DNA of 47,261 bases from Chloroflexota bacterium (GTDB lineage Bacteria; Chloroflexota; Anaerolineae; Anaerolineales; UBA11579), in the NCBI GenBank assembly GCA_023485685.1, contig JAMCZK010000032.1, forward strand, positions 8,062-55,322, given 5' to 3'. Of this stretch, positions 16,430-34,145 are shown piece by piece. The notes under the pieces are model-generated. The model searched no databases. It worked only from the letters and a program-made list of their open reading frames with translations, and was not told the origin of the DNA. The position numbers and the translations under genes are program-made. Each line of letters begins with the position of its first letter. The stretch's first letter is position 1.

Positions 16430-16457
16430 ACCTCCGGCGCCCGCCGGAGGTTTCGTT
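16430..16457 (+). promoter_or_regulatory. Expression-platform hairpin holding the thiN ribosome site
   Basis: ACCTCCGGC (16430-16438) pairs with GCCGGAGGT (16443-16451). The right arm contains GGAGG (16446-16450), the only ribosome site for the TTG start at 16458. The left-arm CCTCC (16431-16435) could pair instead with GGAGG of the aptamer (16405-16409). The hairpin is followed by TTCGTTTTG, so a terminator role is also possible. Confidence 0.65.
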
Positions 16458-28980: not shown

Positions 28981-30921
28981 GTGCGCACTTTGTTTCAACC
29001 GATTTCAAAGAAATCCCATTTCGTTTGGTTGGCTATTGGCGCCGTTTTGCTGGCTGGTTGCGTGGGCGCGGGCAACTTTGTCTGGCTGGATGAAAATGGC
29101 AATGGCGTGCAGGATGGCGCTGAACCTGGCATCGAAGGTGTGTCTGTTACGCTGTTTAAAGCAGATGGCACAGTTCTAGGCAGTACGACAACGGACGCCA
29201 GCGGCAGCTATCAAATCGTTCAGCAAGGGATCGCATCCGGCTCTTTTTACTTAGACTTTGGGCTGCCCGGGGGCTATGAACACACTTTGCAGGATCAGGG
29301 CGGCGACGATGAACTGGATAGCGATGCGAGTCCTTCCAGTGGTGAGACCTCTGTGCTTACCTTATCCGGAATCGACGATAGTGTTGATGCTGGCCTAATC
29401 CTGGTTGATGAAGTTGCTGTGGCTCTCAACGGAGAAGAGCCTACCGCCACTCCCACTCCGACGCCAACCCCAGTCCCTGAACCCGAATCTGGCGCTACCG
29501 GTCTTGAGCAAGTCTGTTACGGGCCAGGCCCCGAAAATTTCCCTGAGGGCATTTCACCGTTGACCGGCTTGCCTGTCAATGATCCATCCCTGTTGGCGCT
29601 CCGCCCCGTTTTTCTGTCGATTTCGATCTTCCCGCCCAGTGTGCGGCCGCCTACCGGCTTGTCCGTTTCACCGATTGTTTATGAACTTTATATCGGCGAG
29701 GGCGATACCCGCTTGATGGCGGGTTTCTATGGTGAATTCCCCCAGCCAGCCTATCAGGGCGAAGGTGGTGAGGGCTCTCCCGCGCCTCAGAATTACGATT
29801 ACTTGATCGGCGACTGGGTTTGGTTCGATTCGAACGGCAATCACCTGCAGGATGAAGGGGAACCCGGCGTGCCGGATGTGCCGGTTAGCTTGTTGGATTC
29901 AAACTTTAACGTCGTGCAGGAAACCACTACGGACGCGTTGGGCAACTATTACTTTGCCCTCAGCGACCTGGCAGTAAATTCTTCCTTCCAGATTCGTTTC
30001 GGCGCGCCGCCTTCCATCCGCGATTACTACTGGGTGAATAAAAACATTGGTGACGACGCCATCGACAGCGATGCCACTGAATTAGGCCGTACCGATTTCT
30101 TCGATCCCACCGATGAAGAACCCGGCCAACAGCTCGATCTCGACGCCGGTTTGCGTCAGGCGTACCGCATCGAGGGCTTACGTTCTGGGCGTGTGGCTTA
30201 CCAGGATCTGCAAATCAACTACTGCGGCTGCCTGGTGACCGCCGGCGCCGACCCAACGGTGGCGGCTCAGATCAATACCTGCGCCTCCGCCTTTGGTAAC
30301 GATCCGGGCAACATCGGTGGCGCCGGGTTGGACGTTAGCCGCCTGCAGGCCATTGCCACCAATAACAGCCAAGGTTCTTGTGCAGAGCCCAACCTGACCG
30401 GTAACCTGTTCTGTACCTTGTCTGGGATCGCAGGGTTGCCGGGCCAGGAACTGTTTGTGGAGTACAACATCAACAATGTGGATCACTTTGTTTACGACCC
30501 CGAATTGGGCGCTTACTCCTGGGCCAAAAACCTGCCTTCAGCCCCCGAAACTTTTGAAGTGATGACCGATAGGCTCACCGGGGAAACGCTGACCTTTGAG
30601 AATGTGATCCTGTTGCTGACTCAGCACACTTCACAGAATTCGGCAGGCACCATCATCAACCTCGATATGAATCACAAGACAGGCACCGCCTTCATCTTCC
30701 GCAATGGCCAGGCGTATGAGGCTCTCTGGACGACCGTGGCCACCGAATATGAGCAAACCAGCGGCCATCCCCTGCCCGTGCGCTTCACGGATTTGGACGG
30801 CAACCCCTTCCCATTGGCGCCCGGGCAAATCTGGGTGAATCTGTTGAATGCATTCGACTCCGTGGAGATGGACGACAGCGGCATCTGGTCGGCCGATTTC
30901 GACGCGCCGCCCAATCCATAA
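28981..30921 (+). CDS. DUF3048 (YerB-like) lipoprotein interrupted by an SdrD-B-like domain
   Basis: 646 residues, secreted and lipidated (lipobox LLAGC, Cys27). Order: SdrD-B-like module 1 (about 30-140, GNFVWLDENGNGVQDGAEPG); a TPTPTPTP linker; the first part of a DUF3048 domain (about 190-255, ISPLTGLPVNDPSLLALRPV); SdrD-B-like module 2 (about 275-392, IGDWVWFDSNGNHLQDEGEPG); then the rest of DUF3048 (from about 396, RIEGLRSGRVAYQDL...VTAGADP, and a C-terminal part with NVILLLTQH and PLAPGQIWVNLL). Module 2 is thus nested inside DUF3048. Each SdrD module has the Asp/Asn-rich calcium-type loop. The GTG start has a good ribosome site. Role in the cell envelope is unknown. Confidence 0.85.
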   Translation: MRTLFQPISKKSHFVWLAIGAVLLAGCVGAGNFVWLDENGNGVQDGAEPGIEGVSVTLFKADGTVLGSTTTDASGSYQIVQQGIASGSFYLDFGLPGGYEHTLQDQGGDDELDSDASPSSGETSVLTLSGIDDSVDAGLILVDEVAVALNGEEPTATPTPTPTPVPEPESGATGLEQVCYGPGPENFPEGISPLTGLPVNDPSLLALRPVFLSISIFPPSVRPPTGLSVSPIVYELYIGEGDTRLMAGFYGEFPQPAYQGEGGEGSPAPQNYDYLIGDWVWFDSNGNHLQDEGEPGVPDVPVSLLDSNFNVVQETTTDALGNYYFALSDLAVNSSFQIRFGAPPSIRDYYWVNKNIGDDAIDSDATELGRTDFFDPTDEEPGQQLDLDAGLRQAYRIEGLRSGRVAYQDLQINYCGCLVTAGADPTVAAQINTCASAFGNDPGNIGGAGLDVSRLQAIATNNSQGSCAEPNLTGNLFCTLSGIAGLPGQELFVEYNINNVDHFVYDPELGAYSWAKNLPSAPETFEVMTDRLTGETLTFENVILLLTQHTSQNSAGTIINLDMNHKTGTAFIFRNGQAYEALWTTVATEYEQTSGHPLPVRFTDLDGNPFPLAPGQIWVNLLNAFDSVEMDDSGIWSADFDAPPNP

Positions 30922-32194: not shown

Positions 32195-32237
32195 TTGAAC
32201 TCCTTGAATAAGCGATTACGACTCGACTCAGCGGCAA

Positions 32238-32264
32238 ACAAAAAGCCGCAGGTGTCCTGCGGCT
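32238..32264 (-). terminator. Attenuator terminator in the MFS leader
   Basis: On the minus strand AGCCGCAGG (32264-32256), loop ACA, CCTGCGGCT (32252-32244), then TTTTTGTTT. It lies between the leader peptide and the MFS start, so transcription must read through it for expression. The left arm can pair alternatively with the upstream CCTGCACGCGGCT (about 32317-32305). Confidence 0.9.
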
Positions 32265-32288
32265 GGCATTCTTGTTGACGTAGGGTGA

Positions 32289-32354
32289 TTAGGAAACGCG
32301 CGAAAGCCGCGTGCAGGGCACGAAACGAGATTGGTGGTAAAACGCGGCTAGCAT
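32289..32354 (-). CDS. Leader peptide of the MFS attenuator (21 residues)
   Basis: A short gene too small for ordinary gene finders. ATG at 32354-32352 follows GGAGGT (32364-32359) at close spacing; the peptide begins MLAAFYHQSRFVP and ends RLSRVS before TAA (32291-32289). Its second to fifth codons contain AGCCGCGT (32349-32342), which pairs perfectly with ACGCGGCT (32312-32305) later in the same gene. A ribosome held on the early codons would free that second segment to pair with the terminator arm. The promoter start, predicted near 32381, excludes the longer in-frame ORF from 32397. Confidence 0.72.
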   Translation of the reverse strand: MLAAFYHQSRFVPCTRLSRVS

Positions 32355-32387
32355 TGGTACCTCCAGGTTTTCCTGTGAGGTTGGGAG

Positions 32388-32416
32388 AGTTTAGCATGAC
32401 CCACGCAACAGGGCAA
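32388..32416 (-). promoter_or_regulatory. Promoter of the MFS attenuator leader
   Basis: On the minus strand TTGCCC (32416-32411) and TAAACT (32393-32388) are exactly 17 bases apart. Transcription would start about 27 bases before the leader-peptide ATG. Confidence 0.65.
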
Positions 32417-32438: not shown

Positions 32439-34145
32439 ATGCAAACAAAACGAACAAAGCTGCTTGAGCGGTTGAAACCTTATCGCGTCGAGATTTTTTT
32501 CCTTCTCATTGCTCTGCTTCCCGCCCTTTACATTGCGCTTGGCAATCCCAACACCATTTTGGATTGGTATAGCTCGGATGATGGCTTTCTTTATTTCCAG
32601 GTTGCCAAAAACCTTGCAGCCGGCCACGGTTTCACCTTTGACGGCATCAATCCCACCAATGGATTTCATCCCTTGTGGCTGTTCGTCATCACGCCTTTGT
32701 TTGCATTATCCCAAATTAATTTACTATTGCCGCTTCGATTGCTCATTATCCTTTCTGCGCTCTTGAGCGCCGCATCCGCAATCCTTCTTTATCGCATCCT
32801 GAATCGCTACGTATCGACTTGGGTTTCAGCCTTTATCGGTTTGCTATGGATTGTTCTGCCCCGTATTCACGATCTCACCCTGCACACTGGCGTCGAGGCA
32901 GGGATCAACGCGTTTTTTCTCTTGCTTTTTTGGCACCTGCTGGTTTCCTTCAAGCCAAATCCAAAAAAACTTAGTTTGCGTGAACTTATCGCCCTTGGTT
33001 TGCTTGGAGCTTTGGCAATCTTGGCGCGCCTCGACAATGCCTTCCTAGTCGGACTCGGTGGCCTGTGGCTCTGGCTGCGTCTCTGGCACCCTTCAAAGAA
33101 GGCTGGCAGACAGAATCCCTGGTTGTGGCGCCTGCAAACCGGGTTTGCTTTCTTTGGCCCAATCGCCGGGATATTGGCGCTTTACTTTGCCTGGAATTTA
33201 TTTGCCTTCGGCGTCGCCATGCCTATCAGCGGCGAGGTTAAGCTTTGGTGGGGCACGTTAAAGAACACGGTCTACGGATTCCCGGTGAAGGACTTCGTGG
33301 ATTTCGGCGGCCAGTTTTTCACCGATGACCCGGAACTCGGCCCCTGGTCGCTGCTGACTGCCCCCCTCTATGCAAGCGCCGAATGGCTGCTGGCGGCATC
33401 GGGCCAGTCGGTTTCGGTGATGGCTCGGCGCACCGTGTTGCTTGCCATGGGGGCTATGCTGGCCGCGTTGGGCGGGGTGTTGATTTGGCTGCAGCGTGAA
33501 TTCTTGCGCCAGGCCGCCCGCGGCCTGGGCCTGCTGCCTTTCTTCCTGGGCTGCTTCATCCAAATTGCCTATTACAAATTCGCCGGTTCGGTGGCTCAGC
33601 AACCTTGGTATTGGATCGCTGAAATGATCTTCTTGCTGATCGTATTGGGATTATTGATAGAAGCCCTTTTGCGGGTTGCAGCCCGCGCGCTGCCTGTGGG
33701 CTTGAGGCGCCTCGCCAGCGGCGCTAGAGTGGCCCTCTTAGCTGTGGTGAGCCTCCTTTTTCTTGGCTTCATCCAGAGTGCGGTTCGCGCTCCGGGCGAT
33801 GGCGGCAATCATTTCTATATCCATCGCGCCCGCTGGCTCGAAGCGAATACGGAGATGGGTGCGCGGGTTGCCATCACGGGCGCAGGCAACTTGGCTTATT
33901 TCACAGAGGGACGCACGATAATCAACATGGATGGGCTGATGAACACCCACGATTATTTATTGGCCCTGCAAGCAGGTGAAGGTGCGCAGTATTTAGCCAA
34001 CTTGGGCGTGGATTACATCTTTGGCAACGAATACATTCTGACAGAGACCAATCCCTATGCCCCCATGCTGGATGGTCATCTGGAACCTTACCAGGTCTAT
34101 CGTTTCGCCGATAGAGAACTTCCCCTTTGGCGCTTTATTCCTTGA
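32439..34145 (+). CDS. GT-C membrane glycosyltransferase (GT39/PMT_2-like)
   Basis: 568 residues with about ten membrane segments, consistent with a GT-C fold enzyme that transfers sugar from a lipid-phosphate donor outside the membrane. The first extracytoplasmic loop carries an acidic pair (WYSSDDGFLYFQVAKNLAAG) and NPTNGFHPLW; a second conserved segment is ILARLDN. A C-terminal hydrophilic domain of about 120 residues (from HFYIHRARWLEANTEMG) follows, like the soluble domain of such enzymes. Acceptor is unknown. Its 3' end overlaps the convergent sortase gene by 11 bases. It is adjacent to envelope-glycan genes on the other strand. Confidence 0.85.
   Translation: MQTKRTKLLERLKPYRVEIFFLLIALLPALYIALGNPNTILDWYSSDDGFLYFQVAKNLAAGHGFTFDGINPTNGFHPLWLFVITPLFALSQINLLLPLRLLIILSALLSAASAILLYRILNRYVSTWVSAFIGLLWIVLPRIHDLTLHTGVEAGINAFFLLLFWHLLVSFKPNPKKLSLRELIALGLLGALAILARLDNAFLVGLGGLWLWLRLWHPSKKAGRQNPWLWRLQTGFAFFGPIAGILALYFAWNLFAFGVAMPISGEVKLWWGTLKNTVYGFPVKDFVDFGGQFFTDDPELGPWSLLTAPLYASAEWLLAASGQSVSVMARRTVLLAMGAMLAALGGVLIWLQREFLRQAARGLGLLPFFLGCFIQIAYYKFAGSVAQQPWYWIAEMIFLLIVLGLLIEALLRVAARALPVGLRRLASGARVALLAVVSLLFLGFIQSAVRAPGDGGNHFYIHRARWLEANTEMGARVAITGAGNLAYFTEGRTIINMDGLMNTHDYLLALQAGEGAQYLANLGVDYIFGNEYILTETNPYAPMLDGHLEPYQVYRFADRELPLWRFIP

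Follow-up and report, generated by a model that had tools for sequence, protein, structure and literature searches.

Why should the gene for an MFS exporter be preceded by a short reading frame with its own ribosome-binding site and then by an intrinsic terminator? This question is raised by a 47,261-nt stretch of DNA (the window) from a genome that falls within an order of uncultured Chloroflexota and has near relatives labelled Anaerolineales. We propose, with a probability of roughly 0.7, that expression of this TetA(P)-like exporter is coupled to ribosome jamming by its leader, acting as a ribosome-controlled transcription attenuator. Such a leader would comprise 160-190 nt 5' of the exporter gene. 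When its upstream open reading frame (uORF) is translated normally or not at all, segment 2 would be paired with segment 1 or covered by a ribosome, the 3:4 terminator would form, and transcription would stop some 40 nt short of the exporter gene. If a ribosome stalls or slows at codons 1-9, it would instead cover segment 1, leaving segment 2 to capture the nascent segment 3, and transcription would read through into the exporter. The signal would likely be a ribosome-targeting drug, perhaps a tetracycline-like one, that the exporter expels.

A TetA(P)-like exporter and the parts of its leader

That the exporter resembles TetA(P) had been overlooked in the initial annotation. The protein scores 282 bits with the TetA(P) model and 265 bits with the Tet(40) model, reaching neither of the curated cut-offs (750 and 800), and is 36.7% identical to annotated TetA(P) and 38% identical to Tet(40) over 89-91%. 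It contains a variant motif A, E-x-P-x5-D-x3-R-R (EIPTGIVADIYSRR), which is conserved across the genus; the form E-x-P-x5-D-x3-R-K/R we take to be a marker of TetA(P). Judged by its sequence, the exporter is a relative of TetA(P) and Tet(40) and no certified Tet determinant. Searching PDB sequences with the exporter revealed no relative.

All the parts of the leader listed in the initial annotation (promoter, GGAGGT, uORF, segments 1-4 and T-tract) were found on the minus strand by direct reading (Table 1). Promoter, uORF and terminator lie in order between divergent genes, an arrangement that argues for attenuation. As the upstream neighbour, a PMT_2-like gene, is divergent, the terminator can act solely on transcripts entering the exporter gene and ends no other gene; the plus strand of its hairpin lacks a T-run, and it reads toward the exporter only. 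The window contains only two perfect stems of at least 8 bp with a T-run behind them, of which the leader terminator is one; the other, also a very strong hairpin with a T-run, lies at 16430-16451 on the plus strand. The 141-nt leader fold has a z-score of -3.66, and none of 200 shuffles was as stable. A further hairpin at the 5' end, overlooked initially, pairs the uORF's own Shine-Dalgarno (SD) sequence. The promoter hexamers are weak (8/12 matches), falling below the cut-off of the promoter scan and hence uncalled by it, and we count the poor -35 against the attenuator reading; a TGnTAnACT element nonetheless stands at the equivalent position in four relatives (L003 and L004-L006), and the scan found no promoter between the terminator and the exporter gene. 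An Rfam search of the leader gave nothing near a gathering score, and a DNA search for the leader in the family matched only the leader itself.

Table 1 Features of the exporter locus in window coordinates
Feature	Position	Strand	Basis or remark
Protein with SdrD_B-like repeats and DUF3048 domains	28981..30921	plus	adjoins the exporter gene
TetA(P)/Tet(40)-like MFS exporter, 409 aa	30965..32194	minus	MFS_1; TetA(P) and Tet(40) models
Exporter Shine-Dalgarno AAGGAG	32200..32205	minus	direct reading
Segment 4 CCTGCGGCT and T-tract, intrinsic terminator	32236..32252	minus	9-bp stem, 3-nt loop; segment 4 stem 32252-32244, then TTTTGTTT
Segment 3 AGCCGCAGG, terminator 5' arm	32256..32264	minus	direct reading, folding
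Leader uORF, 21 codons, MLAAFYHQSRFVPCTRLSRVS and stop	32289..32354	minus	direct reading
Segment 2 CCTGCACGCGGCT, codons 13-17	32305..32317	minus	partner is segment 1, or segment 3 if 1 is covered; core 32312-32305, CCTGC immediately 5'
Segment 1 AGCCGCGT, codons 2-5	32342..32349	minus	pairs with segment 2
uORF Shine-Dalgarno GGAGGT	32359..32364	minus	direct reading; 4 nt 5' of ATG
5' hairpin CCUCACAGG-AAAA-CCUGGAGG	32360..32380	minus	minimum-free-energy fold; pairs the uORF's own Shine-Dalgarno
Promoter TTGCCC-17-TAAACT, extended -10 (TGcTAAACT)	32388..32416	minus	direct reading; -35 32416-32411, 17-nt spacer, -10 32393-32388
PMT_2-like gene	32439..34145	plus	divergent upstream neighbour

Alternative pairings and the position of the ribosome

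We folded the leader with a ribosome placed at each uORF codon in turn, its footprint spanning -15 to +15 nt. In the ribosome-free full leader the 1:2 pairing has a probability of 0.99. A ribosome with its P-site at any of codons 1-9 abolishes 1:2 and brings 2:3 to 0.70-0.77 before segment 4 is made, whereas at codons 12-19 segment 2 itself is covered and 2:3 falls to about 0. This dependence on ribosome position, together with the stability of the leader fold, supports ribosome-controlled attenuation. The initial annotation had suggested just such masked folds as a check, and its claim that a stall at the first codons frees segment 2 is borne out by them; its further claim that 2:3 then blocks termination does not hold at equilibrium, where, once segment 4 has been made, 3:4 stands at about 0.97 in all ribosome states and 2:3 never wins. 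Since the terminator prevails in every state at equilibrium, the switch must be kinetic, with segment 3 presumably captured during transcription. This dominance of 3:4 counts against the attenuator reading, as does the competition from 2:3 in the ribosome-free transcript ending after segment 3 (0.46, vs 0.35 for 1:2); in the ribosome-free case we infer that the order of transcription alone would favour 1:2 over 2:3.

We compared these pairings with two control sets of 2000 sequences each, synonymous recodings and dinucleotide shuffles, in which the terminator was kept fixed; 39 of the recodings and 24 of the shuffles equalled the leader in both 1:2 energy and 2:3 gain. The combination thus lies at a 1-2% level that is suggestive and not decisive, and we count it against the attenuator. 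It also lends something to the main rival, in which the terminator would brake transcription constitutively, a role proposed for T1 of tet(P), or would insulate against antisense transcription, while the uORF is incidental or serves in tuning and no ribosome is sensed. We regard this as unlikely, although it deserves more weight than the other alternatives, and the leader contains features that it would not predict: the SD of the uORF is strong, and segment 2 resembles segment 4 and overlaps the 3' end of the uORF.

One may also postulate a classic amino-acid attenuator, in which an uncharged early-codon tRNA stalls the ribosome; the four-segment geometry is indeed that of amino-acid operon leaders, and the initial annotation had named scarcity of an early-codon tRNA as a possible inducer. 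Codons 1-9, however, contain no run of a single amino acid and no cluster of rare codons, so that tRNA scarcity is unlikely on codon content; codon 2 moreover is CTA in the window and CTG in L003, a genus member described below, and the gene downstream is a drug exporter. We consider this scenario very improbable. The leader peptide MLAAFYHQSRFVPCTRLSRVS holds no macrolide-type stall sequence resembling M-x-x-x-MRLR.

The leader among close relatives

The exporter is present in all 11 members of the genus, the window's genome included, and among the other genus genomes only L003 has the uORF. Its exporter is 65% identical to that of the window, and its uORF, at the equivalent position, reads MLAVDYATSYAFTRCG and stop. 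The L003 leader forms the 1:2 hairpin with a probability of 0.95-0.99 in transcripts that extend as far as the 3' hairpin, and can also form 2:3; the 5' hairpin that pairs the uORF's SD was not seen there. That L003 carries a uORF at this position with a 1:2 hairpin argues for the attenuator and against a terminator that brakes constitutively. The L003 3' hairpin, by contrast, is weak (5 bp and no proper T-tract), and we count this against the attenuator.

A poor terminator beside a retained uORF and 1:2 hairpin is what one might expect if the uORF and its hairpins acted on ribosome access or mRNA stability, the window's terminator being secondary, and such control at the level of translation would also suit the placement of the uORF's SD within the 5' hairpin and the many uORFs of the wider family that have no terminator. 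In the window, however, the terminator ranks among the two best of the 47 kb and stands between the uORF and the exporter gene, whose own SD, AAGGAG, lies outside the terminator stem. We hold such translational control to be improbable.

In L004-L006 the promoter and the divergent neighbour are kept and the leader is gone, such that the exporter begins nearly at the 5' end of the transcript; in L007-L012 the neighbourhood differs and the exporter lies downstream of an apparent sortase gene. A tree of the exporters places L003 outside the group of L002 and L004-L006 (support 91/91). The simplest reading is that the leader was present in the ancestor of the L002-L006 group and later lost in L004-L006. 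The initial annotation had held that homologues with the exporter gene and without the leader would refute its proposal, and formally nine of the 11 genus members are of this kind. Although we count them against the attenuator, we read them as leader loss or rearrangement and not as a disproof of function; loss of a leader that leaves a constitutive promoter is compatible with an attenuator function. For the same exporter, this one genus provides natural cases both with the leader and without it for comparison.

Known attenuators and the wider exporter family

The characterised member of the exporter family, tetA(P), itself has a leader with a terminator and a uORF, and this likeness favours the attenuator reading. 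In the tet(P) operon, tetA(P) is preceded by promoter P3 and terminator T1, the latter described as a sequence that represses transcription and whose loss may lead to more Tet P transcription (PMC6399922); the same description favours a constitutive brake. In an authentic tetA(P) locus from Paraclostridium bifermentans (L185:400-800) we found an SD-led 8-codon uORF, MRKEVVFN and stop, 498 nt upstream of the gene, with two intrinsic terminators. The P3-T1 leader of Clostridium and Paraclostridium thus shares with the window a homologous exporter (37% identity), a promoter far upstream, one or more intervening terminators and an SD-led uORF. Unlike the window's leader, it exceeds 500 nt, is A+T-rich and has a uORF of 8 codons; the likeness is one of layout, and no similarity of leader sequence is claimed.

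Several characterised systems follow the proposed logic. In mef(E)/mel of Streptococcus, an MFS drug exporter is under the control of an intrinsic terminator, alternative stems and the leader peptide Mef(E)L (PMC4335068), and all of these elements have proposed counterparts in the window; the mef(E)/mel leader, however, is 327 nt long, and its 8-codon peptide MTASMRLR contains a known macrolide stall motif that the window lacks. In bmrB-bmrCD of Bacillus subtilis, a drug transporter is governed by ribosome-mediated transcription attenuation that requires translation of the leader ORF (PMC4191407). The window's leader would by analogy work in the same way, although bmrCD encodes an ABC transporter, its terminator lies within the leader ORF, and AbrB imposes growth-phase control. 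The tetracycline resistance gene tet(M) of Tn916 is listed as being under transcription attenuator control (PMC5418344), as proposed here for a tetracycline-type gene, but it encodes a ribosomal protection protein and not an exporter. This type of system is therefore already known, and what is new is its place, the Chloroflexota, along with the hint, taken up below, of recurrent leader ORFs in this exporter family. If the reading is correct, ribosome jamming is the cue by which uncultured Chloroflexota switch on tetracycline-type pumps, much as Gram-positive bacteria control mef, bmrCD and tet genes.

An alignment-based protein search of genome contigs recovered 164 relatives of the exporter, and viral contigs contained none. 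We examined the regions upstream of up to 168 exporter homologues, of which a few may be duplicates. SD-led uORFs precede 12 of 38 exporter homologues as against 10 of 127 neighbouring genes (Fisher p = 0.0005); for intergenic regions of at least 300 nt the figures are 10/17 and 3/41. This enrichment argues for the attenuator and against an incidental uORF, and hints that the exporter family repeatedly carries leader ORFs; if the attenuator reading is correct, this excess would open the family's natural inducers to direct testing. Under a fixed automated rule, the combination of uORF and terminator shows no excess in the family (2/44, vs 7/136 for neighbouring genes), a result that counts against the attenuator and is in line with a constitutive brake; two of the seven neighbouring-gene cases are operons of an RsgA-like GTPase and an exporter. 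In several cases, the terminator upstream of a homologue seems to belong to the end of the preceding gene.

Individual leaders combining a uORF and terminator nevertheless occur before exporter homologues, which supports the attenuator reading: SD-led uORFs are accompanied by two terminators in L097 (MQHNRAFTSRQKAGMAALSSAHPVNCPV and stop) and by an intrinsic terminator in L124 (MTSALAYRTRRIIVPCERAC and stop) and L127 (MSVCTHAIAGLLGVGAHLAA and stop), and L140 has a uORF with a poorer SD (MSAFALPVDLDRAGDSRRA and stop) and an intrinsic terminator. Further support comes from the uORF pair of L164 and L166 (MSATINVHIGSEYGWGVLTG, MSATIKIHIGSDYGWGVIAG), in which substitutions at codon positions 1, 2 and 3 number 3, 0 and 9 while the spacer has diverged; this pattern is a coding signature. 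One may generalise that TetA(P)-like exporters of Chloroflexota, Bacillota and other phyla have recurrently come under the control of ribosome-sensing leader ORFs of unrelated and independent origin, which act at translation in some cases and come with terminators in others, with the leader gained and lost within one genus and some operons including an RsgA-like ribosomal GTPase. We advance this tentatively, at somewhat less than even odds.

Some further leaders were observed in the family. The L164 and L166 uORFs lie about 295 nt before the exporter, with the pattern MSAT-I-x-x-HIGS-x-YGWGV-x-x-G and the promoter TTGACG-18-TATGCT. L116 (1123 onward) and L118 (1132 onward) contain operons of a TetA(P)-like exporter and a GTPase that we take, from reading its sequence, to be RsgA-like; each operon follows an attenuator-like leader with an SD-led uORF (MSKQTVVVNSRSTSAPVFDR, MTIVFAVVRESNSLSAPVLPR) and strong intrinsic terminators, one or two in number, and a drug exporter is here paired with a GTPase of the ribosome-assembly type. 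Five related uORFs (L054, L058, L066, L068 and L071), all from one family of the order, lie 40-180 nt before the exporter and share the pattern M[KQ] ... [IL]-x-F ... GE-x-[IL]-PA(R); they may also encode a GGGA...UCCC hairpin.
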